Of a stretch of DNA of 47,817 bases, positions 22,826-45,864 are shown piece by piece. The DNA lies in assembly GCA_024227475.1 (NCBI GenBank), contig JAAEUI010000359.1, positions 1-47,817 on the forward strand, given 5' to 3'. This DNA comes from Paracoccaceae bacterium. GTDB lineage: Bacteria > Pseudomonadota > Alphaproteobacteria > Rhodobacterales > Rhodobacteraceae. Within the stretch, counting starts at the first letter, position 1, and each line of letters opens with the position of its first letter. The translations under genes and the position numbers were made by a program. The notes under the pieces were generated by a model. That model saw only the letters and a program-made list of their open reading frames with translations, was not told the origin of the DNA and ran no database searches.

Positions 22826-23535
22826 TGACCAAAACACTTAGAGCATTCTCAGCACTGTTGTGTTACCCGACCGCTGAGCTGAAATCGGCGGTTGAGGAAA
22901 TCGAAACTGTGCTGAAAGCAGAGGGATTTCTCAGCGATTCCGAACAGAAAGGCCTTGCACCTTTGCTGCGTGAATTGGCACAAGACGATCTTTATGATCT
23001 GCAGGAACGGTTTGTTGCTCAGTTTGATCGTTCCCGCACCCTCTCTCTTAACCTGTTTGAGCACGTTCACGGCGAAAGCCGGGACCGGGGCGGGGCGATG
23101 GTTGATTTGCTGGAAACCTATCGCGCTGGCGGGTTTGAGCCTGACACCACCGAATTGCCGGATCATCTGCCGATGCTGCTGGAGTTCCTGTCGACCCGGC
23201 CATTGGAAGAAGCAAAGGAACTGCTGGGAGAGGCCTCGCATATTCTGGAAGCGCTGAATGTCCGCCTGTCCCGGCGCGAGAGTTCCTATGCCGGGGTTTT
23301 GGAGGCACTGATGCAGTTTGCGGACCTCACCGTTGATTCAGAAGCCGTTGCTGAACTGCTGAGCGAAGACGACGACGACCCCGATGATCTTGAGGCGCTA
23401 GATGCAGTTTGGGAGGAATCCCAGGTCACATTTGGTCCTGATCCGAACGCTGGTTGCCCGCAGGTGCGCGACATGCTCGCCAAAATGGATACACCTATCA
23501 ACGCTGCGCCGGTCCCACCGGCTGCAGCTGAATAA
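22825..23535 (+). CDS. narJ: NarJ, nitrate reductase maturation chaperone
   Basis: NarJ is a cytoplasmic TorD/DmsD-family chaperone that binds apo-NarG, allows molybdenum cofactor insertion and times membrane attachment of NarGH. The 236-residue all-helical protein starts MTKTLRAFSALLCYPTAEL and contains the family hallmark region SLNLFEHVHGESRDRGGAMVDLL and LPDHLPMLLEFLS. A very acidic stretch (EDDDDPDDLEALD) lies near residue 190. The ATG shares a base with the narH stop; a 28-codon upstream extension is rejected because it lies inside narH. Confidence 0.96.
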   Translation: MTKTLRAFSALLCYPTAELKSAVEEIETVLKAEGFLSDSEQKGLAPLLRELAQDDLYDLQERFVAQFDRSRTLSLNLFEHVHGESRDRGGAMVDLLETYRAGGFEPDTTELPDHLPMLLEFLSTRPLEEAKELLGEASHILEALNVRLSRRESSYAGVLEALMQFADLTVDSEAVAELLSEDDDDPDDLEALDAVWEESQVTFGPDPNAGCPQVRDMLAKMDTPINAAPVPPAAAE

Positions 23536-23546
23536 TGGAGGCACAG

Positions 23547-24227
23547 ATGCACGAATTTCTGTTCGGAACATATCCCTATATAGCGCTGTCGGTTTTGGTA
23601 ATTGGGTCAGTTGCCCGTTACGAGCGTGACCCTTTCACCTGGAAATCATCCTCAAGCCAATTACTGCGGCGCAAACAGCTGATTTTAGGATCGATCCTGT
23701 TTCACGTCGGTGTGCTGGTCATCTTTTTCGGCCACCTCATTGGCCTCTTGACGCCGATCGCCATTTTTGACGCGCTCGGGATCAGCCATGGTGCAAAGCA
23801 GATTCTTGCGATTGCAGCAGGCGGAGTTGCCGGGGCTATGGCGCTGATCGGGGGCGGTATGCTGTTACACCGCCGGATGACCGATCCGCGTATCCTGGCC
23901 ACGACCACATTCGCAGACACCGGTATTCTGTCTTTGCTGCTGGCGCAACTGGTGCTGGGCGTTGGAACGATATTCGTATCGCTACAGCATCTTGATGGGC
24001 ACGAAATGACAACTTTCATGTCCTGGGCGCAGGGTATCTTTACCTTTGATCCGGAGGCCGCGAGCTATATTGAGCATGCTCACATCGTCTTTAGGCTGCA
24101 TTTGTTCCTGGGGCTGACGATCTTCCTGCTGTTTCCGTTCACGCGGCTGGTTCATATCTTGTCCGTGCCGCTGCGTTATCTGACGCGGCCGGGCTATCAG
24201 ATCGTACGCTCGCGACGCAAAGAATAG
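23547..24227 (+). CDS. narI: NarI, nitrate reductase cytochrome b subunit
   Basis: NarI is the five-helix diheme membrane subunit that oxidises quinol at the periplasmic side and feeds NarH. The 226-residue protein matches E. coli NarI (225). Heme ligands are His53 and His63 in helix 2 and His185 and His203 in helix 5, in register with the E. coli histidines. The ATG at 23547 has GGAGG at 23537-23541; an ATG at 23535 that overlaps the narJ stop leaves this site inside the gene and is less likely. The C-terminal tail is basic. Confidence 0.97.
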   Translation: MHEFLFGTYPYIALSVLVIGSVARYERDPFTWKSSSSQLLRRKQLILGSILFHVGVLVIFFGHLIGLLTPIAIFDALGISHGAKQILAIAAGGVAGAMALIGGGMLLHRRMTDPRILATTTFADTGILSLLLAQLVLGVGTIFVSLQHLDGHEMTTFMSWAQGIFTFDPEAASYIEHAHIVFRLHLFLGLTIFLLFPFTRLVHILSVPLRYLTRPGYQIVRSRRKE

Positions 24228-26521: not shown

Positions 26522-26581
26522 GAATTGTACCTCCGGCTTTCTGGTTTACACGGTCAGGCACCGTGTTTACGATTGGCGGAT

Positions 26582-27514
26582 ATGACCAATGTTGTGCAAA
26601 ATACGCCATTCATAGCCCTCATCGCCTATGAGGGTGTTCAGATGTCGGCCGTGTTGGGTCTTAAGGACATTCTGGAAGTCGCGAACAGGTTTGCAGCCGA
26701 GGCCGATGTCGCCGCAATCACCCATGAAGTTTTGCAAACGCACGATATCCGAAACGATCGCACATTCGATGCCGTTGTCCTGCCACCGAATCTTGAGGCT
26801 GCAAGAGGTCAATCCGACCTGGAACTCCACCGTTGGATTGATACTCAGCACAGATCGGGCGCTACTATCTGTTCCGCATGTGCAGGCGCGTTTTGGTTGG
26901 GTTATGCAGGCATATTGGATGGACGGCCTGTGACGACCCACTGGGCATTGGAAGACGAGTTTCGCAAGACCTTCCCCAATACCCAGCTGAACCCGGAGCA
27001 TCTGTTGATCGATGACCACGACATTGTTACCGCCGGGGGGGTGATGGCCTGGATAGATCTGGGTGTGTACCTGATCAGACGATGGCTTGGCGCGGATATC
27101 TTATCAAAAACCTGCCGACAGATGTTGATCGACCCGACAGGGCGTGAGCAAAGAAATTATCGTAGTTTCCGACCCCGGCTGACGCATAACGATGCTGCAA
27201 TTCGTGGGTTGCAGCGTTGGATCGAGGGCAACACAGATGCTGACCTGTCAGTTTTTGAGTTGGCGCAACGCGCGGCTATGTCCGGGCGTTCGCTGCAAAG
27301 ACGATTCACCAATGCAACCGGCCTCACCCTAAGTCGATACGTTCAGCAGCTTCGGGTGGAGAAAGCCAAAGGCATGCTGGAGCGGACTTCCCTGACGGTA
27401 GCTGAGATTTGCTGGCGTGTTGGCTATCAGGATGTGTCGGCCTTCAGTCGTCTTTTCAAGTCCGTATCCGGCCTCAGCGCAGGTGATTACCGCAAGCGGT
27501 TTTCAATCAAATGA
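26582..27514 (+). CDS. GlxA-family AraC-type transcriptional regulator
   Basis: The 310-residue protein has an N-terminal DJ-1/PfpI-like (class I glutamine amidotransferase-like) domain, about 8-190, with the nucleophile-elbow region ICSACAGAFWLGYAGILDGR. A C-terminal AraC double helix-turn-helix (about 215-308) follows, with LSVFELAQRAAMSGRSLQRRF and VAEICWRVGYQDVSAFSRLFK. The ATG at 26582 is chosen because longer starts run into the divergent hydrolase promoter. By family, the N-terminal domain senses a ligand without catalysis. The probable target is the divergent isochorismatase-like gene; control of the mttB unit downstream is also possible. Confidence 0.85.
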   Translation: MTNVVQNTPFIALIAYEGVQMSAVLGLKDILEVANRFAAEADVAAITHEVLQTHDIRNDRTFDAVVLPPNLEAARGQSDLELHRWIDTQHRSGATICSACAGAFWLGYAGILDGRPVTTHWALEDEFRKTFPNTQLNPEHLLIDDHDIVTAGGVMAWIDLGVYLIRRWLGADILSKTCRQMLIDPTGREQRNYRSFRPRLTHNDAAIRGLQRWIEGNTDADLSVFELAQRAAMSGRSLQRRFTNATGLTLSRYVQQLRVEKAKGMLERTSLTVAEICWRVGYQDVSAFSRLFKSVSGLSAGDYRKRFSIK

Positions 27515-27672: not shown

Positions 27673-29217
27673 ATGGGGCATGATAAAACCAGACGCCGTT
27701 CAGGCGGGCGCGACGGGCGCTCCCATAGCCGCGCGCAGGCCCGGCCTTCACGTGCGCCATTCATCCAGCGTAAAATCGGTTGTTTTGAAATTCTCAGCGA
27801 AGAGGGATTGTCGCTGATTGAGCATAATGCGGATGTGCTGCTGCAGGAAACCGGGATGGAATTTCACGGCGACCCGGAAATTCTGGATTTTTTCCGCACC
27901 GCCGGATGTGATGTTGCCGGGGAAAGGGTGCGGTTTGAGCTCGGGTTCTGCCGCAGGACAGTTCAGGCCACTGCGCCGGCTGAATTTTTGCAACATGCCC
28001 GCAACCCTGAAAACACGGTGAAAATTGGCGGTCGTAATACGGTGCTGTGCCCGTCCTGGGGCCCGCCGTTTGTACATGACCTTGATCAGGGCCGCCGCTA
28101 TGCGACACTCGCTGATTTCACCCGGCTGGTGAAGTTGCACCACACCATCCCTTATCTGCATCATTCCGGAGGGGTGGTGTGCGAGCCGGTTGATCTGCCG
28201 GCCAACAAACGCCATCTGGATATGCTGTATCAGCACATCCGCTGGTCTGACCGGGCGTTTATGGGAGCGTTTATTGGGGCGGAGCGTGCGGGCCATGCCC
28301 TTGATATGGCCCGGATTTTATTTGGTGAGGAATTTGTTGCAAGCAATCCCGTGCTCTATTGCGTGTCCAACACCAATGCGCCGCTGGTGATGGATGCGCA
28401 TATGTCAGGTGCGTTGAAAACTTATGCTCGGGCGGGCCAGCCGGTGGCTGCAACACCCTGGGTCATTACCGGCGCGATGAGCCCGTGTACGGTTGCCGGT
28501 GCGCTCACTCAGGTGCTCGCTGAGGCGCTGGCATGCCTGACGTTGGTGCAGCTGATCAATCCTGGAGCGCCCTGTTTGATAGGTAGTTTCGCCTCGACCA
28601 TGTCGATGCAAAGCGGTGCGCCGACATTTGGCACGCCGGAAGCCGGGCAATTGGTGCTGGCCGCTGGCCAATTGGCGCGACGGTTAGGGGTGCCGATGCA
28701 CACGGTTGGGTCTCTGTCGGCCTCCAAACTGCCGGACGGGCAGTCCCAGCAGGAGGCGGTCTGGGGGTTGATGATGTCGATGTTTGCCGGGGCCAATGTG
28801 ATCAACCACGCGACAGGCTGGCTTGAAGGCGGGCTGGTTACGAGTTTTGAAAAGACCATGCTGGATGCGGATATCTGCGGCAAAATTGGGCGGTTTTTTG
28901 ATGGCATTGACCTGAGTGAAAATGCCCAAGCGATGGAGGCGATAGCCGCAACCGGGCCGGGATCGCATTTTCTGGGGTCTGAGCACACCCAGGCCAATTT
29001 CATGGCGGCAATGTTCATGCCGGATACAGCAGACAATTCTTCGTTCGAGCAATGGAGTTCCGATGGCGGAAATGATGCGGCGCAGCGCGCGAATGCACTG
29101 TGGAAACAAAGGCTTGAAGAGTATCAGGATCCGGGGCTAGACCCGAATATTGACTCAGAGTTGCAGGACTATGTTGCCGTGCGCAAAGCCGAAAAACCGG
29201 ATGTGAACTACTACTGA
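27673..29217 (+). CDS. MttB superfamily (non-pyrrolysine) methyltransferase
   Basis: The 514-residue protein belongs to the MttB/COG5598 family, whose characterised members transfer a methyl group from trimethylamine or a quaternary amine (for example glycine betaine, proline betaine, carnitine) to a corrinoid protein. The basic, arginine-rich N-terminus, the GGVVCEPVDLP region, and the barrel segments around GAMSPCTVAGALTQVLAE and GAPTFGTPEAGQL fit the family. No in-frame amber codon is present, so it is the non-Pyl type that acts on quaternary amines rather than trimethylamine. AGGGGGCGG precedes the ATG. No corrinoid protein or reactivase is encoded in the window. Its stop overlaps the next gene by one base, so it is functionally tied to the two downstream dehydrogenases. 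Confidence 0.85.
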   Translation: MGHDKTRRRSGGRDGRSHSRAQARPSRAPFIQRKIGCFEILSEEGLSLIEHNADVLLQETGMEFHGDPEILDFFRTAGCDVAGERVRFELGFCRRTVQATAPAEFLQHARNPENTVKIGGRNTVLCPSWGPPFVHDLDQGRRYATLADFTRLVKLHHTIPYLHHSGGVVCEPVDLPANKRHLDMLYQHIRWSDRAFMGAFIGAERAGHALDMARILFGEEFVASNPVLYCVSNTNAPLVMDAHMSGALKTYARAGQPVAATPWVITGAMSPCTVAGALTQVLAEALACLTLVQLINPGAPCLIGSFASTMSMQSGAPTFGTPEAGQLVLAAGQLARRLGVPMHTVGSLSASKLPDGQSQQEAVWGLMMSMFAGANVINHATGWLEGGLVTSFEKTMLDADICGKIGRFFDGIDLSENAQAMEAIAATGPGSHFLGSEHTQANFMAAMFMPDTADNSSFEQWSSDGGNDAAQRANALWKQRLEEYQDPGLDPNIDSELQDYVAVRKAEKPDVNYY

Positions 29218-31616
29218 TGGGACGGGTCATCATCATAGGTGGCGGCGCGATTGGCTTGAGCCTTGCGTATCATCTGGCAAAGCGTGGTGTGGATGATGTG
29301 GTGCTTTTGGAGCGCAACCAACTGACATCAGGCACCAGCTGGCATGCAGCGGGGATCGTCGGGCCGCTCCGCTCGACGCCGAACATGACCCGGCTGGCGA
29401 TGTATGCGGGGGAGTTGTTTCCAAGACTTGAGGAGGAAACCGGGCAGAGCACGGGGTACCGCGTGACAGGCGGCTACTGGCTGGCGCGGGTGCCTGAGCG
29501 GATGGATGAGTTGCAGCGGATCGCCGCATTGGGGCGGTATTTCGGGCTGCACGCGGAAGTTATTGCGCCAGAGACACTCCCAGAGCTGCTGCCCGACGTG
29601 AATACCAATGGGATCGTCGGAGCGTTGACGGTGCGTGAGGATGCGCATGTGAACCCGGTCGATTTGTGCATGGCCTATGCCAAGGCGGCGCGAGGGTTGG
29701 GGGTGGATATTCGGGAAGGGATTGATGTCGCATCTCTGCGGACATCCGGTTCGCGCATAACGGGTGTCAGGCTGGCAGATGGGGAAATCATGCAAGCTGA
29801 TCAGGTGGCGCTTTGCGCCGGTGCATGGTCCAAAAGGCTGGCGGATTCTGTGGGGGTCGCGCTGCCGCTGCAGGCGGTTGAACATATGTATGTGGTGAGT
29901 GAACCCATGCCGCAACTGGCGCAGCCTTTCCCGGTGTTGCGTGATCTGGAAACCGGTATTTACGTAAAGGGAGATGCAGGGAAACTGGTGATCGGCGGGT
30001 TCGAGCCGGATGCGAAATGTTGGGACGCTTTTGGGCCGGAGGGTGACCGGCCGTTTCTGGAACTGGCCGAGGACTGGGAGCAGTTTGCCCCGTTCATGGA
30101 GGCTGCGCTGAACCTCATACCGGACCTTGAGAAAACCGGCATTCAGCATTTCATGAACGGGCCGGAAAGCTTTACCAACGACACGCGTCCGCTGATTGGA
30201 GAAACCCCGGAGGTAGACGGGCTGTTCGTTGCTGCTGGCCTGAATTCGGTTGGGATCATGTCTTCAGCCGGTGTCGGGTGGGTGTTGGCAGACTGGATGG
30301 TGGATGGCGTGCCGCCGATGGACCCCTGGGAGGTGGATATCGCGCGGGTGGACCCAAAGACCGCGCAGAACGGGCACATCAGGGCGCGGATGAAACAGGC
30401 AGTTTCAGACCAGTTTTCAATGCATTGGCCTTACAAGCAGCCAATTGCGGGGCGGGGGTTGCGGAAATCCGCGCTGCACGACTGCTGGGCATCAGTTGGG
30501 GCGCATTTTGGTCTAACAGCGGGTTGGGAGCGGGGGCTTTGGTATGCACAGAGTGAAACGGAAAATGACCTGCCCTATTCTGTTGCGACACAGCCCTGGC
30601 AGGCGATAGCGGAGCGCGAGGCGGCTGTTCTGACCAATGGCGTGGCCTTGCTTGATCTGTCCCCGTTTGGGAAATTTGATGTCGTCGGGACCGACGCGCT
30701 TACGTTCCTAAATCACATTTGTGCCGCGCAGATTAATGTTGCTGAAGGCGGAGCTGTTTATACGCCCCTGATGAACCGGATCGGGGGAATCGAAGCGGAT
30801 GTGACGGTTAGCCGATATGGAGCACAGCATTTCAGGATAACTTCCGGCGCTGCCACTTGGCACAAGGAATTGGCCTATCTGCGGCGTCATTCGCAGGGCT
30901 TTGATTTACGGGTAACGGACCGGACAGAAGAAGAAGTCGTGGTTGGTGTTATGGGGGCGCAGACACGCGAGTTGCTGCAAGGGCTGTCGTCGGATGATTG
31001 GGTGAATTTCGGGGTTTCGACATCGCGGATGGTTGAAGTTGCGGGCATGTCCTGCCGGGCGACCCGCCTGAGCTTTGTTGGCGAGCTTGGTTGGGAATTG
31101 AGCATTACGGCTGTTGACGGACCAACAGTGTTTGAGGCGTTGAGCGATGCCGGGGCGCGTCCGATGGGGCATTTTGCGTTGGATGGCTGCCGGGTTGAGA
31201 AAGGTTTCAAACACTGGGGCCATGATCTGGGGCCGGAAATAACTCCGTTGGAAGCCGGGCTTGGGTTTGTTGTTGACTGGGGTAAAGAGTTTCTTGGCAA
31301 GGACCGCCTGCTGAAACAGCGAAACAGTCGTCTGACACGGCGTCTGGTTCTGTTGGAAATCGGCGGCGATGCATTGATGTTGCATGATGAACCGATCTGG
31401 GAGAACGGGCGCGTCGTCGGCCTGACGACTTCTGGCGCGCGGGGGCCGCGCACGGGGCTTAATCTGGCGTTTGGGATTGTTGAGACCGGGCCGGGGGAAA
31501 CCATCGGGAAAACCGTTGAAAGGCAGTTTTCCGTTGAAGTTGCAGGAACGCACTATCCCGCCACGGCGTTGCGTCGCCCGCCGTTTGATCCAGGCGGTGA
31601 AAGGATGCGGGCATGA
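29217..31616 (+). CDS. Dimethylglycine/sarcosine dehydrogenase-like FAD-GcvT protein 1
   Basis: This 799-residue protein is built of four parts. It has an N-terminal FAD oxidoreductase domain with the dinucleotide loop GGGAIG at 8-13 and His43 in SWHAAG, the residue that carries covalent FAD in dimethylglycine dehydrogenase. A short FAO_M-type middle segment follows near residue 400-440. Two GcvT-type folate-binding segments then run to the end (FVGELGWELSI near 620 and a C-terminal barrel). Family members remove an N-methyl group from a tertiary or secondary amine and pass the formaldehyde unit to tetrahydrofolate. The ATG shares a base with the mttB stop, and the stop overlaps its paralogue by four bases. 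The substrate is not determined; dimethylglycine is one candidate. Confidence 0.85.
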   Translation: MGRVIIIGGGAIGLSLAYHLAKRGVDDVVLLERNQLTSGTSWHAAGIVGPLRSTPNMTRLAMYAGELFPRLEEETGQSTGYRVTGGYWLARVPERMDELQRIAALGRYFGLHAEVIAPETLPELLPDVNTNGIVGALTVREDAHVNPVDLCMAYAKAARGLGVDIREGIDVASLRTSGSRITGVRLADGEIMQADQVALCAGAWSKRLADSVGVALPLQAVEHMYVVSEPMPQLAQPFPVLRDLETGIYVKGDAGKLVIGGFEPDAKCWDAFGPEGDRPFLELAEDWEQFAPFMEAALNLIPDLEKTGIQHFMNGPESFTNDTRPLIGETPEVDGLFVAAGLNSVGIMSSAGVGWVLADWMVDGVPPMDPWEVDIARVDPKTAQNGHIRARMKQAVSDQFSMHWPYKQPIAGRGLRKSALHDCWASVGAHFGLTAGWERGLWYAQSETENDLPYSVATQPWQAIAEREAAVLTNGVALLDLSPFGKFDVVGTDALTFLNHICAAQINVAEGGAVYTPLMNRIGGIEADVTVSRYGAQHFRITSGAATWHKELAYLRRHSQGFDLRVTDRTEEEVVVGVMGAQTRELLQGLSSDDWVNFGVSTSRMVEVAGMSCRATRLSFVGELGWELSITAVDGPTVFEALSDAGARPMGHFALDGCRVEKGFKHWGHDLGPEITPLEAGLGFVVDWGKEFLGKDRLLKQRNSRLTRRLVLLEIGGDALMLHDEPIWENGRVVGLTTSGARGPRTGLNLAFGIVETGPGETIGKTVERQFSVEVAGTHYPATALRRPPFDPGGERMRA

Positions 31617-34024
31617 GCGAGGCGCAGGTGGTGATCATCGGCGGCGGGGTGATGGGTGTATCGCTCCTCTATCATCTGGCCAAAGAGGGCTGGCAGGATG
31701 TTGTTCTGGTGGAAAAAAATGATCTGACCCATGGTTCGACCTGGCACGCGGCCGGGCTGTGTACGCATTTTGCCCATAACGCGACGATTCAGGAATTGCG
31801 GGCCACATCCGTGCGGCTGTATCGCGATATTCTGCCGGGGGAGACCGGGCAGGATGTCGGTTTCCACCGTTCCGGCGCCATGCGGATCACTCGCAATCGT
31901 GACCGGATGGACGAGTTGGCCCATGTTGCCGGGCTGTCGAAATTCACCGGATACGAACTGGAACTTGTGACGCCGGACCAGATCAAAGACCTGTTTCCGC
32001 TTGCGAATACGGATGGTCTGATCGGTGGAATCTTTGAACCGGATGACGGCCACGTAGACCCCTCGCTGGCGACCAATGCGATGGCGCAGGTGGCTGTTCA
32101 GGGCGGCGCAACGATCAAACGCTATAATCCCGTTCTTTCCATTTCAAGGGAGAACCGACTGTGGCGGGTTGAATGCGCCAACGGGGCGATACGAACCAGG
32201 CATCTGGTTAATGCTGCCGGAACATGGGGATGGGAAGTCGGTAGGATGATGGGGCTGAATATTCCATCGGTTCCGATTCTGCATCAGTATCTGGTAACGG
32301 ACACGGTTCCCGAGGTCGCTGACCGCATTGCCGCTGGCAGTGCAGAACTGCCGATCATCCGCGATCCGGAGGAAAGCTGGTATGTCCGGCAGGAACGCGA
32401 TGGCTTGATCCTTGGCCCCTATGAAAAAGAGGCTCAGCCTTGGTCTATTGACGGCGTTCCGCCAGAGTTTGGCGCAGACCTGCTGCCGCCGGACCTCGAC
32501 CGGGTCGAGCATATAATCGAGGCTGCCATGGTCCGTATTCCAGCACTGGGAAATGGCGGCGTGAAGACGGTTGTGAACGGGCCAATTACCTTCACCCCGG
32601 ATGCCAACCCGCTGATTGGTCCGGCGGCGGGACTACAGAACGCCTGGCTGCTGACCGGGTCCTCGATGGGGGTGATGGAAGGTGGCGGTGCCGGTTGGTT
32701 CCTGGCCCGTTGGATGACGCATGGCGCGCCACCGATGGATGCGCTGGCGGTAGATAGCCGCCGCTTCGGACGTTGGGCGGACCGGGACTATCAGGTTGAA
32801 AAGGCAACAGAGTGTTTTGGTTTGCAGTTCGGCGTTCACTATCCACACGAGGAAAGACCGGCAGCGCGAAACAAGCGTCTGTCACCCCTTCACAACCTGA
32901 TGCTTGAGCGGGGCGCGGTTATGGGGGAGGCCCATGGCTGGGAGCGTCCCAATTGGTTTTCAGACAGAACCGGCGATGTGGTCATGCCCGGTTTCCGGCG
33001 GCCAGGCTGGTTTGCCCGCGTGGCAAAAGAGGTTGATGTTGTGACCAACAATGTTGGTCTGGCCGATCTGTCGGTATTCTCGAAATTTGATGTCAAAGGC
33101 CCTGAAACGCGTGCGTTCCTTGAGGGCCTCGGGGCCAATGCCGCCCCTGCCAGTGGGCGTATCGGATTAACGCATGTTCTGACGCCGGCGGGCGGGGTTC
33201 TTTCTGAATTCACCGTGGCAATGCTGGCAGAGGATCACGCTTACCTGACCTCTGCAGCGGCGGCAGAGGAAATTGACCGGGATGCGCTGGCGGCCCATGC
33301 GGCGGGGTATGAGGTTCAGATCACCAATCTGACCGAGGAATTGGGTGTGATAGGCGTGATGGGTCCCAAATCGCGGGCGCTGTTGAGCCAACTGACAGAT
33401 GCCAATCTCGGGCCAGACTTCCCGTGGTTGACAGCAAAGGAAATTTCGGTTGCCGGCCAAAGTGTCAGAGCTTTGCGGGTGTCCTATCTCGGGGAACTTG
33501 GGTGGGAGTTGCACGCGCCGATTTCACAGATGGTGGCGCTTTTTTTGGCGTTGGAAGCGGCTGGCCGAGATCTGGGGCTTGGGTGCTATGGCGCATACGC
33601 TGCCAACTCGATGCGGCTTGAAAAAGGCTACCGCAGTTGGGGCAGTGATCTGACCAGCGAACGGACGCCGCAGGAAACCGGGGTTGGGTTTCTGGTCAAA
33701 CCTGAAGGTCGGAAATTCACCGGGCGGGACAGCATGCTGGAGCGTGATGCGCGCGATGATCGTTGGGAAATGGTGTTGCTGGACGTGCAAACGAACCAGA
33801 CCGACCCATTTTATGCCCATCCCGTTACTGTAAACGGAGATGTGGTTGGGATCGTCACATCCGGTGCCTATGGCCACCGGACCGGCAAGGCGCTGGCGCT
33901 GGCCTTTTTGCGAAAACGGAGTTTGCGGTGGGGGCTGTCGGTTGAAATTCTGGGCCGGGGGCATCCCTCAAACGTCCTGGACACACCGCCCTTTGATCCG
34001 ATGAATATGCGGTTAAAAAGTTGA
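31613..34024 (+). CDS. Dimethylglycine/sarcosine dehydrogenase-like FAD-GcvT protein 2
   Basis: This is a second 803-residue protein with the same domain order as its upstream neighbour: FAD loop GGGVMG near 10-15, covalent-FAD histidine His45 in TWHAAG, the FAO_M segment around HYPHEERPAARNKRLSPLH, and GcvT domains with YLGELGWELHAP. The two differ clearly at most positions, so this is an old duplication or independent recruitment rather than a recent repeat. In such tandem pairs it is reasonable to expect one enzyme for the dimethyl and one for the monomethyl intermediate. It overlaps the upstream gene by four bases and precedes the aminotransferase by 17, with AGGAGGAAA between. Confidence 0.85.
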   Translation: MSEAQVVIIGGGVMGVSLLYHLAKEGWQDVVLVEKNDLTHGSTWHAAGLCTHFAHNATIQELRATSVRLYRDILPGETGQDVGFHRSGAMRITRNRDRMDELAHVAGLSKFTGYELELVTPDQIKDLFPLANTDGLIGGIFEPDDGHVDPSLATNAMAQVAVQGGATIKRYNPVLSISRENRLWRVECANGAIRTRHLVNAAGTWGWEVGRMMGLNIPSVPILHQYLVTDTVPEVADRIAAGSAELPIIRDPEESWYVRQERDGLILGPYEKEAQPWSIDGVPPEFGADLLPPDLDRVEHIIEAAMVRIPALGNGGVKTVVNGPITFTPDANPLIGPAAGLQNAWLLTGSSMGVMEGGGAGWFLARWMTHGAPPMDALAVDSRRFGRWADRDYQVEKATECFGLQFGVHYPHEERPAARNKRLSPLHNLMLERGAVMGEAHGWERPNWFSDRTGDVVMPGFRRPGWFARVAKEVDVVTNNVGLADLSVFSKFDVKGPETRAFLEGLGANAAPASGRIGLTHVLTPAGGVLSEFTVAMLAEDHAYLTSAAAAEEIDRDALAAHAAGYEVQITNLTEELGVIGVMGPKSRALLSQLTDANLGPDFPWLTAKEISVAGQSVRALRVSYLGELGWELHAPISQMVALFLALEAAGRDLGLGCYGAYAANSMRLEKGYRSWGSDLTSERTPQETGVGFLVKPEGRKFTGRDSMLERDARDDRWEMVLLDVQTNQTDPFYAHPVTVNGDVVGIVTSGAYGHRTGKALALAFLRKRSLRWGLSVEILGRGHPSNVLDTPPFDPMNMRLKS

Positions 34025-34041
34025 TTTTGCAGGAGGAAACT

Positions 34042-35367
34042 ATGCAACAGAAGGCGCCACAACCGATTGACTGGTCAACAGAAGGGACAGCAGCGCGCCG
34101 TGAGCAGTTTTACGCTGCCTCACAACGTAAGTTTGTGCCGTTCAGAGAACCGATGGTATTTCGCAGGGGGTCAATGCAATACCTTTGGGATGCTGAGGGT
34201 CGCAAATACACTGACCTTCTGGGCATGAACGTGTGCATTTCTGTCGGTCATTCGCATCCCAAAGTGGTTGCCGCCGCAATGGAGCAGGCGCAGGAGTTGA
34301 CCCATTGCACGACCATGTTTCACCACCCGATCCCGGCGCATTTTGCTGAGGAGTTGGCCGTAACTATGCCCAAGGGGGATAAGGGTGATGTCGAATGGGT
34401 GGTGCATTTCACCAATTCCGGTTCCGAGGCGGTTGATCTGGCTATGGCGATGGCCCGCACTTACACCGGCAATGTTGATTTGCTGGCGCTACGCTCGGGT
34501 TATCACGGCCCGACCTCCGGAGCGCAGTCGATCACCGGGATTGCCGGGTTTCGCCATCCTGGCATGCCCGGCGGCGTCGCCTTTGTTCCTGAACCCAATC
34601 AGTATCGCGGAATCTTTGGTGCGGGCACCGGGCCTTACCTTGATGAAATCGAGCGCACGATCCAATCAGCGACGCTGGGCAAGGTGGCCGGAATGTTTGT
34701 TGAATCGGTTCAGGGCTATGGCGGGATCGTTGAAATGCCGCCGGGATATATGACCGGGGCGGCCGAGAGGGCGCGCGCAGCCGGAGGGCTGTATATAGCA
34801 GATGAAGTGCAATCCGGGTTTGGCCGCACCGGCGATCACATGTGGGGGTTTGAGGCCGATGGCGTCATCCCGGACATAGTGGTCATGGCCAAGGGGATCG
34901 GCAACGGCTTTCCGCTTGGTGCTGTTGTTGCGCAAAAGCACGTAGCCGCACCGATGGCCGAAAAGTTCATGTTCCACACCTACGGCGCTAACCCCACTTG
35001 CTGTGCGGCTGGTCGTGCCGTGCTGTCGGTGATGAAAGAAGACCGGTTGCAGGACAATGCAAAGACCGTAGGTGCGGCGCTGTTAGAGCGTCTGAAGGAT
35101 TTACAGCGTAAACACAGGGCAATCGGTGATGTCCGGGGCCGGGGATTGATGCTGGCGATTGAGATGGTAAAGGACCATAAGACGAAAGAACCTGACAGGG
35201 AAACCACCGCAGCAGTTTTTGAAAAATGCCGTGACGCCGGATTGGTCTTGTCAAAATCAGGCCCACACCAGTCAGTGCTGCGTATGGTGCCGCCGCTGTG
35301 TCTGAGTGCAGCGGATGTTGAAGTCGTGGCGGATGGTCTGGATCAGGCGTTCTCGGCGTTGATCTGA
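34042..35367 (+). CDS. Class III aminotransferase, AGXT2-like
   Basis: The 441-residue PLP enzyme has the class III pattern. Asp254 in YIADEVQSGFGRTG binds the pyridine nitrogen, and Lys284 in VVMAKGIGNGFPLG is the Schiff-base lysine. HFTNSGSEA and GDVRGRGLM are also present. Overall it resembles mammalian AGXT2 (alanine-glyoxylate and beta-amino-acid:pyruvate transaminase) more than ornithine- or GABA-type enzymes. AGGAGG lies eight bases before the ATG. It closes the demethylation unit, so a plausible job is to deaminate the fully demethylated amine to an aldehyde or oxo acid. Its 3' end overlaps the convergent LacI gene by 25 bases. Confidence 0.82.
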   Translation: MQQKAPQPIDWSTEGTAARREQFYAASQRKFVPFREPMVFRRGSMQYLWDAEGRKYTDLLGMNVCISVGHSHPKVVAAAMEQAQELTHCTTMFHHPIPAHFAEELAVTMPKGDKGDVEWVVHFTNSGSEAVDLAMAMARTYTGNVDLLALRSGYHGPTSGAQSITGIAGFRHPGMPGGVAFVPEPNQYRGIFGAGTGPYLDEIERTIQSATLGKVAGMFVESVQGYGGIVEMPPGYMTGAAERARAAGGLYIADEVQSGFGRTGDHMWGFEADGVIPDIVVMAKGIGNGFPLGAVVAQKHVAAPMAEKFMFHTYGANPTCCAAGRAVLSVMKEDRLQDNAKTVGAALLERLKDLQRKHRAIGDVRGRGLMLAIEMVKDHKTKEPDRETTAAVFEKCRDAGLVLSKSGPHQSVLRMVPPLCLSAADVEVVADGLDQAFSALI

Positions 35368-36377
35368 AAATTGGTGCTTTCGCGCTCCTGTAATTCCAGA
35401 TCAACCGCGATCCGCGTCAGGCTCTGGGTATTTTCCCCATTGATGACACCGACCAGCAACTGCGCTGCTTCGATTCCGATCTTGTTGGCGCGCAGCCGTA
35501 CTGTTGTGAGGCTGGGATAAATCTCGCCCGACCCGGAAAAGTCCCCAATGCCAGCAACGGCAACGTCTTGGGGAATCTTCATGCCAAGGGCCTGGGCTTC
35601 GTATATCGAGCCCTGAGCGATGACGTCGTTTCCACAGATCAGAGCGGTGGGGGGAGTGTCTCGTTGCAAAAGCGCGCGGCAACAAATCCGCGCGTGTTTA
35701 ATGGAATAGATGGACTGGGAGCGCAACTCGTTGGGAATCTTCAACCCTGCTTCTTCGATTTTTGAAATCACACCGGCAAAACGAGCTGCCGCCCGATCAT
35801 TGCCAGCTAATTGGGGAAAGATAGTCCCGATGTTTTTGTGTCCTTTGGACAGGATGTGATCGGCGATCTGCTGTCCGGCTTCGAAATTGTCCGAGCCAAC
35901 GCAATGGATACGTGACAACTGGTTGTAATTCCAGATCGCGACGCAGGGTGTTTCGCGCAATTCCAGAAGGTCATAGGTTTCCGCATTGTGTTCCAGACCA
36001 ATGAGCGCGATCCCTTCGACCCGATGACTGAGGAGCGAACGTAGCAGCTGGTATTCACTCTTCAAATCATAGCCGTGGGTTGTGACCAGCATGGTAAACC
36101 CATGTTCAGCCAAAGTTGAGGTAAACGCCTGAATCAGGTTGGCAAAAATTGCGTTGTCCAAAGTCGGTACGATTAATCCGATCATTCCGCTGCGCTTGCC
36201 ATGGATGGCCTGCGCCGCCCGATTGCGGATATATCCGGTCCTTTCGACGGCCTGATTGATTCGTTTTTTGGTGTCAGCGCGCACTTTGTCCGGGTGGTTG
36301 AACGAGCGTGAGACCGTGGCCGCAGACACCCCTGCAGCAATCGCAACGTCAATAATATCAGCATACTTCTTTCTCAT
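35343..36377 (-). CDS. LacI-family transcriptional regulator
   Basis: The 344-residue protein has an N-terminal LacI helix-turn-helix (DIIDVAIAAGVSAATVSRSFNHPDKV, about 7-32) with the hinge region RNRAAQAIHGKRS. A periplasmic-binding-protein-like sensor domain follows, with GLIVPTLDNAIFANLIQA and the C-terminal VAVAGIGDFSGSG region. It is divergent from tctA, with a palindromic operator between, so it probably represses the transporter and the downstream aldehyde dehydrogenase and ligase genes until its inducer is present. The inducer is likely the imported acid or a derivative. Confidence 0.88.
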   Translation of the reverse strand: MRKKYADIIDVAIAAGVSAATVSRSFNHPDKVRADTKKRINQAVERTGYIRNRAAQAIHGKRSGMIGLIVPTLDNAIFANLIQAFTSTLAEHGFTMLVTTHGYDLKSEYQLLRSLLSHRVEGIALIGLEHNAETYDLLELRETPCVAIWNYNQLSRIHCVGSDNFEAGQQIADHILSKGHKNIGTIFPQLAGNDRAAARFAGVISKIEEAGLKIPNELRSQSIYSIKHARICCRALLQRDTPPTALICGNDVIAQGSIYEAQALGMKIPQDVAVAGIGDFSGSGEIYPSLTTVRLRANKIGIEAAQLLVGVINGENTQSLTRIAVDLELQERESTNFQINAENA

Positions 36378-36413: not shown

Positions 36414-36473
36414 TAACTATTTTCATTGGCTAGCCTTACTAATCACCAACACTACGAAAGGGCGATACAGCGC

Positions 36474-37967
36474 ATGGAGTTTCTGTTTCATTTCGGCGAG
36501 GTCTTCACGCTGACTTCAATGCTGCTGCTGATCGGAGGCACCATCGGCGGTCTGATACTTGGAGCAACACCAGGCCTGTCGCCGACCATGGCGGTGGCGC
36601 TGCTGATCCCATTTACCTTTCAGCTGGAAGCTGTTCACGGGCTGATTTTGCTGGGGGCGGCCTATACTTCGACGGTAGCGGGTGGCGCTGTCAGTGCCAT
36701 TCTGCTGAAGATACCAGGAGCGCCGGCAAATATAGCAACAACCCTTGACGGGCACACGATGGCGAAAAAGGGCCAAGGGGCGCGTGCACTTCAGTTGTCC
36801 TTTATTGCCTCACTTTTCGGTGGCTTGTTCGGAGTATTCCTGCTGATATTTCTAACACCGGTTCTGGCCCAGTGGGCGCTGGCGTTCAGCTATTCGCACA
36901 CGTTCTGGCTGGCGATCATCGGGGTGGCCGTTATCGGATCACTGGAATCAAGTTCGGTTGTCAAAGGGTTGCTGTCTGGCTGTATTGGCATGTGGCTGGC
37001 GACCATCGGCTTTGATGATATTCAGGGTGCCAAGCGCTTTGTATTTCATCCCGCCTTGTCAGGGGGCATCAACATCATTCCGGCCCTGATTGGCCTGTTT
37101 GCCATTCCTCAGGTGATCTCGATGTTCGCCAAGGGACGGTTTGACACTTCTGTTGAGCAGATTACGGTTGAAAAACACCCGATCGGCGAAGCCTTTAGGG
37201 AGGTTTTCCGGCGATTCCGCGCTCTTGGCGTCGGGACGGTTGTCGGTTCCATTATCGGCCTGATCCCGGGCGTTGGCGGGCAGATCGCCGGGCTGGTTGC
37301 TTACGACCAATCGAAGAAGTTCTCACCGGAAAAAGCCAAATTCGGAACTGGCCATTCCGAGGGCGTAATCGCGGCAGAATCTGCAAACAACGCGATGGTC
37401 GGCCCATCATTGGTTCCGCTTCTGACCCTTTCGATCCCTGGCAGCCCGACCGCGGCAGTGCTGCTAGGCGGCCTGATCATTCACGGTATTTTTCCCGGCC
37501 CCAAACTGTTTGATACCTACCCCGAAGTAATTTGGCCTTTTATCAATTCGATGCTGCTTGGCCAGATTCTGATGTGCGTCTTTGGCATTTACATCGCCTC
37601 GTTTGCGGCGAGGGTGGCACAGGTGCCGCAATCGGTTATGGCAGCGATTGTTCTGGGGTTGGCGGTTTACGGGTCCTTTGCGGTGCAGCAGTCGATGAAC
37701 GACGTCTATGTCATGGCAGCATTAGGCGCGATGATGTTTTTCCTTGAACGCTTTGGGTTCTCAGCCGCACCGCTGGTGCTTGGACTGATCCTTGGCCCGA
37801 TTGCTGAAAGCAATTTCGTCACTGGCAATCAGATATCTTTGGCTCAGGATGGGCCAGCGGTCTATTTCCTCACTGGCACTCTCAACCTCACCTTGATCGC
37901 AATCGCAGTTGTGTCGATTGGGTATTCGCTGTGGTCGGAAATTTCGGCCCGGAGGGCGGCTTCATGA
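36474..37967 (+). CDS. tctA: TctA-type large membrane subunit of a tripartite tricarboxylate transporter
   Basis: The 497-residue protein has about 12 hydrophobic segments and the two TctA hallmark repeats: GGTIGGLILGATPGLSPTMAVAL near the start and VGSIIGLIPGVGGQIAGLV near residue 265. Further helices around GLILGPIAESNF follow. TctA is the channel-forming subunit that works with TctB and a periplasmic TctC to import small carboxylates. The ATG at 36474 is chosen, with AAAGGG upstream; an earlier in-frame start lacks a site. It overlaps tctB by four bases. The family does not reveal the substrate, but the downstream CoA enzymes suggest a short acid. Confidence 0.9.
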   Translation: MEFLFHFGEVFTLTSMLLLIGGTIGGLILGATPGLSPTMAVALLIPFTFQLEAVHGLILLGAAYTSTVAGGAVSAILLKIPGAPANIATTLDGHTMAKKGQGARALQLSFIASLFGGLFGVFLLIFLTPVLAQWALAFSYSHTFWLAIIGVAVIGSLESSSVVKGLLSGCIGMWLATIGFDDIQGAKRFVFHPALSGGINIIPALIGLFAIPQVISMFAKGRFDTSVEQITVEKHPIGEAFREVFRRFRALGVGTVVGSIIGLIPGVGGQIAGLVAYDQSKKFSPEKAKFGTGHSEGVIAAESANNAMVGPSLVPLLTLSIPGSPTAAVLLGGLIIHGIFPGPKLFDTYPEVIWPFINSMLLGQILMCVFGIYIASFAARVAQVPQSVMAAIVLGLAVYGSFAVQQSMNDVYVMAALGAMMFFLERFGFSAAPLVLGLILGPIAESNFVTGNQISLAQDGPAVYFLTGTLNLTLIAIAVVSIGYSLWSEISARRAAS

Positions 37968-38419
37968 ACATGCAGCAGCATCGCATATCATCGGGTGTCA
38001 TCACCCTGCTTGCCATCTGGGTCTGCTATCTCAGCTTTACCGAACGCCCCGCTGAAGCCTACTTGTTCCCGCGCATCATCGCCGTGTTCTTTCTGGCCTT
38101 TGCGATCTGGACTTTTGGCAAGGCGCTTTTGGGCCGTTCCAATACCGGTGTGGGCCTGTCTTATGACATGGCGGTAAAAATGGCACCGGGGCTGCTGGTG
38201 TCGGTGATCTACATCTTCTGGGCAGCGAAGGCGTTCGGTTTTTACACCGCCAGCACCCTGACATTTTTCATTCTTGTGTCGATTTACGATCCGGCACCGC
38301 ACGGGAAAATCGGGTCGTGGGTCAAACGCGCAGTTATCACCGTCGGCTTTATCGCCGTCATCTATGCACTCTTTGCGGTTGTGCTGAAAGTCTACACGCC
38401 GCGGGGGATGTTTTTGTAG
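37964..38419 (+). CDS. tctB: TctB-type small membrane subunit
   Basis: The 151-residue protein has four predicted membrane helices and the moderately conserved FPRIIAVFFLAFAIW stretch typical of TctB. It is the small partner of TctA. The ATG overlapping the tctA stop (ATGA) is preferred; a second ATG six bases later is equally in frame. A small hairpin follows its stop. Confidence 0.85.
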   Translation: MNMQQHRISSGVITLLAIWVCYLSFTERPAEAYLFPRIIAVFFLAFAIWTFGKALLGRSNTGVGLSYDMAVKMAPGLLVSVIYIFWAAKAFGFYTASTLTFFILVSIYDPAPHGKIGSWVKRAVITVGFIAVIYALFAVVLKVYTPRGMFL

Positions 38420-38435
38420 CCGCCACAACGGCGGC
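38419..38435 (+). repeat. Short intercistronic hairpin between tctB and tctC
   Basis: GCCGCC (38419-38424) and GGCGGC (38430-38435) pair around a five-base loop, starting at the last base of tctB. There is no T run, so it may affect mRNA processing rather than termination; tctC has its own GGGAGGA site after it. Confidence 0.45.
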
Positions 38436-38456
38436 AGTCTTAAGGGAGGAACAAAG

Positions 38457-39413
38457 ATGAAGAAACTACTGGCAGCTCTGGCGATATCGCTGATGAGCTT
38501 TGGCGGGATGGCCGCTGCAGACTATCCGGATCGTCCGGTGCTTCTGATGGTCTCATACGGTGCTGGGGGTGCCACGGATTTTCAGGCCCGGATCGTGACC
38601 ATTCCAGCGGGCAATGAAGATCAGCTTGGCATGCCGATTGCGATCATCAACAAGCCGGGTGCCGGTGGCCGTGTTGGCTGGAACTGGTTTGCAACCGAGG
38701 CCGAGGCCGATGGCTATACGCTGGGCGCTTACAACATCCCGCACTTCATCGCCCAGTCGATCAAGGGCGGCGTGGATTATTCAAAAGACAGTTTTGAGCC
38801 GATTGCAAACTGGGGTGCCGATCCGGCGGTGTTTATTGTCGGCAAGGACAGCGCGTTTAACTCCATGGCTGATGTTGTCGCCTACGCCAAGGAAAACCCC
38901 GGCAAGCTGACCTTCTCAGGCGCCGGCTTGTTTGTGGGTCACCACATTGCAGCGCTACAGATCGAGAAGGCAGCTGGCGTGAAGATGGCCTATATCCCGA
39001 CCAAAGGCGGTGGCGCAGCGGCGATGAAAGCCGTGATTGCGGGTGACGTTCTGGGCGGGGTCAACAATTTGTCTGACGCCTTCCGCGCCCGCGAAGCGGG
39101 TAACATCAAAATCCTCGGCGTGGCCGATCTTGAGCGCAACGAGTTTTTGCCCGACGTCCCGACGATGAAAGAGCAGGGGTTGGATGTGGACAACTCCTCG
39201 GTCAACTTCCGCGGCATCATGGTGCCAAAGGGAACACCGCAGGAGATTATCGACAATCTTGCCGCGGTGGTTCCAAAAATGTTCGAGCATAAACGTGTGA
39301 AACAGCGGATGAAAGCAGGCGGATCGCCCCTACACATAATGACCCGCGACGAAGTTCTGGCGATGTGGGAAGCTCGCCAGAAAACCCTCGAAGAACTGTT
39401 GGCAGGTCTTTAA
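38457..39413 (+). CDS. tctC: TctC-type periplasmic solute-binding protein
   Basis: The 318-residue precursor has a cleavable signal peptide (basic start, hydrophobic core, cleavage near GMAAA-DYP). The BUG/TctC fold follows, with VSYGAGGATDFQARIV, IINKPGAGGRVGWNW, FSGAGLFVGHHIAALQIEKAAG and VNNLSDAFRAREAG, the loops that hold the carboxylate. It captures the substrate for TctAB. A 9-bp intercistronic hairpin follows, a usual way to make more binding protein than downstream enzymes. Confidence 0.92.
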   Translation: MKKLLAALAISLMSFGGMAAADYPDRPVLLMVSYGAGGATDFQARIVTIPAGNEDQLGMPIAIINKPGAGGRVGWNWFATEAEADGYTLGAYNIPHFIAQSIKGGVDYSKDSFEPIANWGADPAVFIVGKDSAFNSMADVVAYAKENPGKLTFSGAGLFVGHHIAALQIEKAAGVKMAYIPTKGGGAAAMKAVIAGDVLGGVNNLSDAFRAREAGNIKILGVADLERNEFLPDVPTMKEQGLDVDNSSVNFRGIMVPKGTPQEIIDNLAAVVPKMFEHKRVKQRMKAGGSPLHIMTRDEVLAMWEARQKTLEELLAGL

Positions 39414-39422
39414 ACAGGCGGC

Positions 39423-39445
39423 GGGGTGGCAAAACCTGCCACCCC
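39423..39445 (+). repeat. Intercistronic stem-loop between tctC and the aldehyde dehydrogenase gene
   Basis: GGGGTGGCA (39423-39431) and TGCCACCCC (39437-39445) form a perfect nine-pair GC-rich stem with a five-base loop, without a T run. It is probably an mRNA-stabilising or partial-attenuation element rather than a full terminator. Confidence 0.6.
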
Positions 39446-39466
39446 CGTACAACTCCGGGAAATTCC

Positions 39467-40870
39467 ATGACTGACCTCACCGATCAGGACATCGTCGACG
39501 CCTTGCTGCTGAGGGCTCGAACGGCTCAGGAACGCTTTGCCAAAGACGCAACGCAGAAGCGCTACGATAAGGCAGCGCTGGCTGTCGGTTGGGCGATCAT
39601 GCAACCCGAACGCAACGCCGAAATGGCAGAACTAGCGGTGGAAACTACCGGGCTTGGCAACGTCGCAGACAAAATCACCAAGAACCACCGAAAAACACTG
39701 GGATTGCTGCGCGATATTTCGGACGTGAAAACCACAGGCATCATCCGCGAAGATCCCGAAAACGGGATCACAGAAATTGCCCGCCCCATTGGCGTGGTGG
39801 GGTGCGTTGTACCCTCGACCAACCCGATTGCGACGCCTGCCAACAATATCATTAACGCGCTCAAATGCGGTAACGCGATTATCCTGTCGCCCTCGCCAAA
39901 GGGGATTGCGGGATGCGAGCGGTTGATGGAACATATTTACGCCGAGTTCGACAAGCTCGGGATCGACAGGGACCTTGTTCTGATGATCCCGGCCCCTGGG
40001 ACCAAGGCGAAGACTCAACGGATGCTTGAGGTCACAGACCTTGTGGTAGTCACCGGCAGCCAGGACAACGTGCGCCGCGCCTATTCTTCGGGAACTCCGG
40101 CGATTGGTGTGGGAGCGGGCAACGTAACGGTCATCGTTGACGAAACCGCAGATATGCAGGACGCGGCAGAAAAGATTGCCGCTTCCAAGACCTTTGACAA
40201 CGCAACCTCCTGTTCGTCGGAAAACGCGCTGGTTGTCGTTGACACAATCTATGATGATTTTATCGCCGCATTGGCGGATGCTGGCGGTGCATTAGTCAAG
40301 GACGAACGGTCAATCGTCGCGAACCTCTGGCCCGATGGAAAGCTAAGTCGACACGCCATCGCCAAAGACGCCGATGTGCTGATTGACGTTCTAGGCCTCA
40401 AAGGGAAGGTGCCTGACGACACAAAATTCCTTGTCGTCCCAACAGCCGGGATTGGCAAACAGCATCCCTTGTCCGGCGAAAAGCTCTCGCGAGTTGTCGC
40501 ACTTTACCGTGCCGCCGATTATAACGCGGCCAAAGCCCTTGTATCTGAAATTCTGGCCTATCAGGGGGCCGGGCACTCGGTTGGCATTCACACGACCGAC
40601 GTGGATCGACCGGTTGCTTTGGGTCACGAAATGCCCAGTTGCCGGGTCATCGTCAATCAGGCGCACTGCTTTGCCACTGGTGGATCTTTCACAAATGGCT
40701 TGCCGTTTTCCCTGTCCATGGGTTGCGGCAGTTGGGGTGGCAACTCCATTGACGAGAACTTGCATTGGAAGCACTTCATGAACATAACCCGAGTTGTGCG
40801 TGAACTGCCCGACAGCACGCCGGAACTGGACCAGATATTTGGTGACTACTGGGCTTCCGCAGGAAAATGA
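39467..40870 (+). CDS. CoA-acylating aldehyde dehydrogenase, SauS-like
   Basis: The 467-residue protein is an ALDH-superfamily member of the EutE/AdhE type, which forms acyl-CoA from an aldehyde, NAD(P)+ and CoA, or runs in reverse. The nucleophile is Cys249 in FDNATSCSSENAL. The cofactor region reads CVVPSTNPIATPANN with SPSPKG, and SGTPAIGVGAGNV precedes the active site. Overall it resembles SauS, the acylating sulfoacetaldehyde dehydrogenase of sulfoacetate catabolism. The ATG at 39467 follows a CCGGGAAAT stretch; the longer reading frame crosses the intercistronic hairpin and is rejected. It overlaps the CoA ligase gene by four bases. The substrate is inferred, not shown; glycolaldehyde- or glyoxylate-type C2 aldehydes remain possible. 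Confidence 0.75.
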   Translation: MTDLTDQDIVDALLLRARTAQERFAKDATQKRYDKAALAVGWAIMQPERNAEMAELAVETTGLGNVADKITKNHRKTLGLLRDISDVKTTGIIREDPENGITEIARPIGVVGCVVPSTNPIATPANNIINALKCGNAIILSPSPKGIAGCERLMEHIYAEFDKLGIDRDLVLMIPAPGTKAKTQRMLEVTDLVVVTGSQDNVRRAYSSGTPAIGVGAGNVTVIVDETADMQDAAEKIAASKTFDNATSCSSENALVVVDTIYDDFIAALADAGGALVKDERSIVANLWPDGKLSRHAIAKDADVLIDVLGLKGKVPDDTKFLVVPTAGIGKQHPLSGEKLSRVVALYRAADYNAAKALVSEILAYQGAGHSVGIHTTDVDRPVALGHEMPSCRVIVNQAHCFATGGSFTNGLPFSLSMGCGSWGGNSIDENLHWKHFMNITRVVRELPDSTPELDQIFGDYWASAGK

Positions 40871-43100: not shown

Positions 43101-43199
43101 ATCCTCGACCTCCAAAGATTGGTGCTGACAGAGCCGACAGCCACCGATACGTTGCCCGGGCGAACGGATATATCAAGGGAAAACTGGAAAGACCGCAAA

Positions 43200-45775: not shown

Positions 45776-45864
45776 TTGTTATCATTTTTTCTGATGGACA
45801 GGGAAATTATTAGTATTTGATATTATGGGTAAGTCAAGCCAGTGTGACATCTTGGGAGGCTGCT

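Follow-up and report, generated by a model that had tools for sequence, protein, structure and literature searches.

What does a run of four adjacent genes do that joins a corrinoid-dependent methyltransferase to two flavin dehydrogenases and a pyridoxal 5'-phosphate (PLP) enzyme, and on which compound does it act? The question is raised by a 47,817-nucleotide stretch of DNA from a Paracoccaceae bacterium (contig JAAEUI010000359.1 of assembly GCA_024227475.1), the whole of which is called the window here. A preliminary description, made from the letters of the window, had read the genes as a complete one-operon route that takes a trimethylated amine from R-N(CH3)3 through R-NH2 to R=O, with the gene order equal to the chemical order. 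Our analysis suggests, with a probability of about two in three, that they would form a unit for the catabolism of a single trimethylated amine, which would not be glycine betaine and is most likely an omega-betaine with an acidic group at its far end, of the beta-alanine, taurine or gamma-aminobutyrate type. The four open reading frames (ORFs) are consecutive on the plus strand of the ORF list, at 27673-35367:

27673..29217, plus strand: MttB, a member of the MttB superfamily (non-pyrrolysine), predicted corrinoid-dependent quaternary amine methyltransferase (PF06253, 658 bits; tree placement).
29217..31616, plus strand: dehydrogenase 1 (DH1), a DMGDH/DMGO-like flavin adenine dinucleotide (FAD) and GcvT dehydrogenase, putative tertiary/secondary amine demethylase (DAO, FAO_M, GCV_T and GCV_T_C; DMGDH, 413 bits).
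31613..34024, plus strand: dehydrogenase 2 (DH2), a DMGDH-like FAD and GcvT dehydrogenase, putative second amine demethylase (DAO, FAO_M, GCV_T and GCV_T_C; DMGDH, 661 bits).
34042..35367, plus strand: class III PLP enzyme (aminotransferase fold), candidate for the last step, R-NH2 -> R=O (PF00202, 289 bits; AGGAGG before the ATG).

The arrangement had been described correctly. MttB and DH1 overlap by 1 base and DH1 and DH2 by 4 bases (ATGA), and the gap of 17 bases after DH2 holds with a PLP gene that most likely starts at ATG 34042, behind an AGGAGG Shine-Dalgarno sequence; an alternative, longer ORF begins at TTG 34021. The enzyme families were likewise confirmed by Pfam, and they fit stepwise N-demethylation followed by deamination. 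In NCBIfam, no curated cut-off was reached by any of the four proteins among the matches listed.

The four genes are a real, co-inherited unit that brings known enzyme families together in a new combination. We searched 292 genomes of the order with the PLP enzyme (E <= 1e-120) and found it in 15, of which 13 (the window included) were at least 75% identical and two about 60-62%. The gene order was the same at 10 of the 14 relatives and rearranged at 2, where DH2-DH1 face away from an MttB-PLP pair; the partner genes were absent at the remaining 2 (L043 and L044), which are the about 60-62% identical ones. These two enzymes were considered as a clue to ancestral function and set aside, given that their neighbours (CorA, PolA and DabA among them) were uninformative. 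In a second collection, 84,980 species were scanned by two peptide patterns and 80 loci were kept of 182 PLP relatives, a scan that by construction leans toward PLP enzymes closely related to that of the cluster. With partial matches counted from 15% of length, all four genes were present at 68 of these 80 loci, which had been fetched by the PLP enzyme alone, and at 9 of the 12 incomplete loci the contig stops within 5 kb.

The unit is accessory within its order yet broad in reach. All four genes occur in records that bear the names Roseovarius, Ruegeria, Leisingera, Shimia, Nioella, Defluviimonas, Paracoccus, Tabrizicola and Aestuariivirga, in others named only as Rhodobacteraceae or Hyphomicrobiales, in a metagenome-assembled genome (MAG) of Geminicoccaceae and in two MAGs named Granulosicoccaceae. 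DH2 and the PLP enzyme are visible on a SAR116 contig before it ends. A Mesorhizobium plasmid carries the same four families, accompanied by a LysR gene and by an ATP-binding cassette (ABC) transporter for glycine betaine. Roseovarius nubinhibens ISM, Ruegeria arenilitoris strains and Leisingera sp. ANG-M1 are named isolates with the four-gene set.

Conservation of the exact four-gene order, a check proposed in the preliminary description, was seen only in part. The unit is complete at 68 of 80 loci as stated, and the order of the window is kept at 37 of them only; 30 have a layout in which DH2-DH1 are divergent from MttB-PLP enzyme, and one (L107) has a third layout. Given these 30 loci in split layout, the sequence of the genes need not mirror the sequence of the reactions, and that part of the original proposal is not supported as worded. 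We compared identities and trees over 66 loci of types I and II, L128 being left out of the 67. The layout label changed once on the MttB tree, twice on that of DH1, once on that of DH2 and three times on that of the PLP enzyme, compared to at least 16 changes in 200 shuffles each. Such nearly clean layout splits in all four gene trees are the pattern of a co-inherited unit. Mean identity between layouts was 67% for DH1, 71% for DH2, 80% for the PLP enzyme and 52% for MttB, and within layouts it was 68-72%, 73-77%, 81-82% and 80-84%, respectively. DH1, DH2 and the PLP enzyme are nearly as alike between layouts as within them and MttB is not, suggesting that the last three steps stayed constant while the entry enzyme diverged.

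The entry enzyme forms a group of its own. The window MttB matched PF06253 at full length (profile 1-499 of 500), and its frame is open, with no in-frame amber (pyrrolysine) codon; the pyrrolysine equivalog TIGR02369 scored 240 bits against a cut-off of 525. The closest structure was 4yyc (581 bits), compared to 358 bits for the glycine betaine MtgB 9yce, and the protein is 54% identical to S. meliloti MtgB. In a maximum-likelihood tree of 57 of the 94 extracted sequences, cluster MttBs of both layouts formed one clade (support 100/99) outside the MtgB clade, a group of four members, S. meliloti and Paracoccus included (98/90). The mtgB genes of S. meliloti and Paracoccus adjoin genes for a cobalamin-binding protein, a methyltetrahydrofolate-cobalamin methyltransferase and a methylene-tetrahydrofolate reductase, the neighbour set that a Ruegeria study names as the colocated MtgBCDE of S. 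meliloti (PMC12478193). An apparent MtgB-clade member of the window's own genome lies on another contig (C535).

That genome is rich in MttB and DMGDH-like genes, with 17 PF06253 and 19 FAO_M matches. Among 101 genomes of the order the next highest PF06253 count was 11, and two further members of its genus showed only 3 apiece; the count of 17 comes from a separate profile search, and the 101-genome comparison scored 13 of 20 candidates from the window's genome. Three of the 17 (on C367 and C487, and a fragment on C208) fell under the coverage filter and stand outside the tree. MttB genes on C367, C154 and C331 adjoin DMGDH-like or class III aminotransferase genes, as if MttB, DMGDH-like and aminotransferase modules had been combined repeatedly in this genome. 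The assembly is 79% complete, in 657 contigs, with 1.81% contamination, and may be mixed.

An MttB-type enzyme works only with a corrinoid protein and with a second enzyme that accepts the methyl group. A search with S. meliloti MtgC, MtgD, MetF, DUF1638 and Bmt gave no homologue at any of the 81 relative loci (fetched flanks, 1e-12) and none in the window (1e-8). With no corrinoid gene linked, the operon by itself does not hold the complete route, contrary to the original proposal. All 13 cluster genomes carry MtgC once per genome, 80-85% identical to that of S. meliloti, either on a different contig or, in the case of G170, at a distance of about 650 kb; in the window's genome it sits on C402 (84% identical) beside DUF1638 and Bmt homologues. 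Judged from these gene positions, MtgC is supplied in trans to the four-gene unit, a point that is directly supported, as are family membership, conservation as a unit and the distinct MttB clade. A second corrinoid set was observed on contig C208 of the same genome (L045, 5330-10139), with a cobalamin-binding protein (40% to MtgC), MtgD-like, RamA-like and DUF1638-like genes and a divergent MttB fragment at the contig end. Its MtgD-like and RamA-like matches, from a search of the window and the fetched loci of its genome, were 35% and 24% identical.

DH1 and DH2 each carry their four domains in one chain, above the Pfam cut-offs, and DMGDH was the closest structure for both. In DH1, His43 aligns to the flavin-linking His region and Asp528 to Asp552 of DMGO; DH2 has His45 at the flavin-His position and Glu532 where DMGDH also has Glu. 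We take the His to be the covalent FAD link and the acidic residue to belong to the folate site in DMGDH and DMGO, and the conserved residues of DH1 and DH2 fit methylene transfer to tetrahydrofolate. FAD enzymes of N-methyl aminophosphonates are not known to have the GcvT part. A caution comes from one article, which reports that these enzymes release methylamine instead (PMC10590968).

In the PLP enzyme, Lys291 aligns to the PLP lysine of GabT (Lys268) and Arg421 to GabT Arg398, which presumably binds the keto-acid carboxylate; Lys291 and Arg421 are invariant in 14 aligned sequences, the window included. The best sequence match was the ethanolamine-phosphate phospholyase 6tor (286 bits), also rank 1 by fold. 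The AlphaFold model had a mean predicted local distance difference test score (pLDDT) of 74.5, and the PDB fold search echoed the sequence result, leaving lyase and transaminase undivided. The position of Arg421 is held by Lys in the phospholyases 6tor and 5g4i, and from these two solved lyases only we infer Lys to be a phospholyase mark; the two closest paralogues in the window's genome (C655 and C4; 38% identical, long open frames) also have Lys there. The PbfA equivalog scored 236 bits against a cut-off of 525. With Arg421 present and GabT Arg141 and Glu211 missing, the enzyme is neither a gamma-aminobutyrate-type transaminase nor a typical phospholyase. The aminotransferase proposed for the last step stands as a class III family member, and transamination itself is not settled, given the missing GabT residues; we lean toward an enzyme that would transaminate a short acidic amine.

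The catalytic steps, their order and the substrate are read from the enzyme families as follows. MttB would take one methyl group off R-N(CH3)3 and load it onto the cob(I)alamin of the shared MtgC encoded elsewhere in the genome, and the methyl group would then pass from MtgC to tetrahydrofolate. DH1 and DH2 would oxidise the next two methyl groups, which would be handed on as methylene-tetrahydrofolate via the GcvT domains, and the class III PLP enzyme would strip the nitrogen from R-NH2 to give an aldehyde for central metabolism.

Several observations weigh against this pathway. The unit is sporadic, since only 13 of the 292 genomes searched have it, and the PLP enzyme was absent at 1e-120 from six other genomes of the window's genus. 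MttB is missing at L131 despite 8.5 kb of upstream sequence, and at L091 and L114 the PLP enzyme is present and the other three genes are all absent. The sister relation of cluster MttB and MtgB is supported at 92/74 only. MtgC is near-universal (94 of 101 genomes of the order), so that its presence supplies the required protein but is expected anyway and does not single out the cluster. GabT Arg141 and Glu211, which we take to be the substrate arginine and the switch glutamate, are replaced by Pro164 and Tyr233, making the reaction of the PLP enzyme uncertain. Finally, a consistently linked downstream aldehyde dehydrogenase was not found at the 81 loci, 7 of which had a GabD-like match.

Two regulatory genes flank the unit:

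26525..27514, plus strand: GlxA/AraC-type regulator, candidate regulator of the unit in the window's genome (HTH_18 and DJ-1_PfpI).
35343-36377, convergent to the PLP gene: LacI gene, whose 25-base overlap closes the unit downstream.

The GlxA/AraC regulator matched FtrA and GbdR, both under cut-off, and had a homologue at 0 of 81 relative loci at 1e-30, with two weak matches at 1e-15 (L090 and L099). A LysR-like gene occurs at 55 of 80 relative loci; this count and those of sulfotransferase and OpuAC genes given below are rough lower bounds, from gene-family clustering with a home-made ORF caller and codon score, in which each neighbour family took its name from a scan of one or two of its members. 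LysR was rejected as regulator of the window copy, which carries the GlxA/AraC gene instead. Promoter-like sites at the locus were fewer than the shuffle mean, and terminator-like sites lay inside the shuffle spread. Elsewhere in the window, the segment 5885-24224 has narGHJI nitrate reductase genes (17580-24224) with a major facilitator superfamily gene and a Crp-type regulator, fairly near the cell-division genes ftsQ, ftsA and ftsZ and lpxC. The region 43095-47109 holds an acetolactate-synthase-like thiamine pyrophosphate enzyme (281 bits against an Xsc cut-off of 676), a LysR gene and a D-amino-acid-dehydrogenase-like gene.

In favour of a betaine substrate, OpuAC-type betaine-binding genes occur at 14 of 80 loci, against only 2-7 copies per genome in the 13 genomes; related loci are not independent. 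Apart from the phosphocholine of MthB, the MttB-superfamily substrates that the authors of one article list are carboxylate-bearing quaternary amines (PMC12155760). We considered that the substrate could, as a special case, be taurine betaine, with trimethyltaurine converted to taurine and then, by the PLP enzyme, to sulfoacetaldehyde, which would feed Xsc and sulfoacetate genes. Directly downstream of the LacI gene, which is divergent from them, window positions 36426-42390 encode TctA, TctB, TctC, SauS and an AMP-binding acyl-CoA ligase. SauS, an acylating sulfoacetaldehyde dehydrogenase, scored 691.6 bits against a curated cut-off of 600, and the ligase beside it resembles SauT, so this adjoining segment is probably a sulfoacetate catabolic unit. 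Xsc was above cut-off on contig C51 of the window's genome and in 12 of the 13 cluster genomes, a weak contrast with 197 of 292 (67%) in the order, and the exception, G033, holds the full cluster (L037) in a 99% complete genome with no Xsc above cut-off. SauS was found at 0 of 81 relative loci. We therefore rejected the sulfoacetate neighbourhood as proof of taurine betaine. The PLP enzyme is also far from the solved taurine:2-oxoglutarate aminotransferase 6jix, at 158 bits compared to 286 for the phospholyase, and taurine betaine as the specific substrate appears unlikely.

The likeness of the PLP enzyme to 6tor in both sequence and fold could instead point to an ester, in which phosphocholine or choline-O-sulfate would be demethylated to O-phospho- or O-sulfo-ethanolamine and a PLP lyase would eliminate the ester and ammonia to leave acetaldehyde. 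E. limosum MthB, an MttB member, is reported to use phosphocholine (PMC12155760). A Sulfotransfer_5 (PF19798) gene occurs at 33 of 80 loci, with varying position and strand (e.g., L107:11287-12042), and orthologues at least 47% identical are present in 8 of the 13 cluster genomes, and in six of those 8 the gene lies at the cluster. However, there was no match at 1e-15 in G097 and G121, and none was seen at the window locus; a search of plasmids gave no match either. The sulfotransferase (family F4) was rejected as an essential fifth part, given that only those 8 of the 13 cluster genomes have an orthologue. An APH kinase gene was linked at 4 loci only, and the cluster enzyme has Arg421 where 6tor, 5g4i and the paralogues on C655 and C4 have Lys. 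Together, these observations make an ester substrate quite unlikely.

Glycine betaine, a candidate of the preliminary description, turned out to be the least likely of those named there. MttB, DH1 and DH2 would yield glycine, and the PLP enzyme would act on glycine or glyoxylate. Points for it are the MtgB group as nearest neighbour of the cluster MttB, the closeness of DH2 to DMGDH and nearby transporters of the OpuAC type. Against this, the cluster MttB falls outside the MtgB clade, whose member in the window's genome sits on C535, and glycine needs no class III PLP enzyme, yet one accompanies the other three genes at 68 of 80 loci; we regard this variant as highly improbable. That the four genes share a locus and serve unrelated methylated amines, mainly for one-carbon harvest, would suit the abundance of DMGDH-like and MttB genes in the window's genome (19 and 17 matches), but the joint presence at 68 of 80 loci and the matching tree splits leave this only the slimmest chance.

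Betaines are abundant salt-protecting molecules, and methylated nitrogen osmolytes are a large marine carbon and nitrogen currency. Beyond the proposed omega-betaine unit, we tentatively suggest a cobalamin-dependent aerobic pathway that would fully dismantle an acidic betaine for which no such route is known (taurine betaine, beta-alanine betaine or choline-O-sulfate). An MttB subfamily not recognised before would provide the entry enzyme, both dehydrogenases would be dedicated to the pathway, and the class III PLP enzyme would have a new specificity; the unit would be accessory across several alphaproteobacterial groups, and the host, with its 17 MttB and 19 DMGDH-like matches, may be a methylated-amine specialist. 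If true, vitamin B12 would reach further into the nitrogen cycle of the ocean, and possibly into its sulfur cycle. The reading is testable in the named isolates with a short list of candidate substrates. A description of the four-gene set was not found in the literature as judged by titles and abstract openings, with subscription journals mostly outside.

The closest known system is MtgBCD of Ruegeria pomeroyi, and in the 2025 study MtgBCD demethylates glycine betaine, MtgC and MtgD are needed for growth on it, and MtgC is common to the glycine betaine route and methionine synthesis (PMC12478193). Both systems have an MttB-superfamily enzyme, a shared MtgC and, as predicted here, methyl transfer to tetrahydrofolate; in Ruegeria, also an aerobic alphaproteobacterium, dimethylglycine and sarcosine demethylation steps follow (PMC12478193). 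Unlike MtgBCD, the four-gene unit has a separate MttB clade, two linked DMGDH-like enzymes and a fixed class III PLP partner, has no linked mtgC or mtgD, and would act on a substrate other than glycine betaine. Its authors find as many as seven pfam06253 genes in a genome and propose that the other copies serve other substrates (PMC12478193); the work covered glycine betaine and left those copies unassigned, and the four-gene unit makes one kind of them testable. Eubacterium MthB, MtcB, MtpB and MtyB are also MttB members, each specialised for its own acidic quaternary amine, although they belong to anaerobes, and the consulted parts of the two articles do not mention linked DMGDH-like dehydrogenases or an aminotransferase (PMC12478193, PMC12155760). 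The betaine island described for SAR11 is a different one, without MttB (PMC12421898). DH1 and DH2 share the DAO-FAO_M-GcvT-GcvT_C architecture and the flavin-His position with DMGDH and DMGO (4pab, 1pj5), but stand as two tandem copies with MttB. Among solved proteins the phospholyase 6tor comes nearest to the PLP enzyme, and PbfA also has the class III fold and acts on terminal amines (PMC8154272); the cluster enzyme has Arg421 in place of the phospholyase Lys and lies far under the PbfA cut-off. Collectively, our findings describe a variant that extends the MtgBCD theme with a new combination of families.

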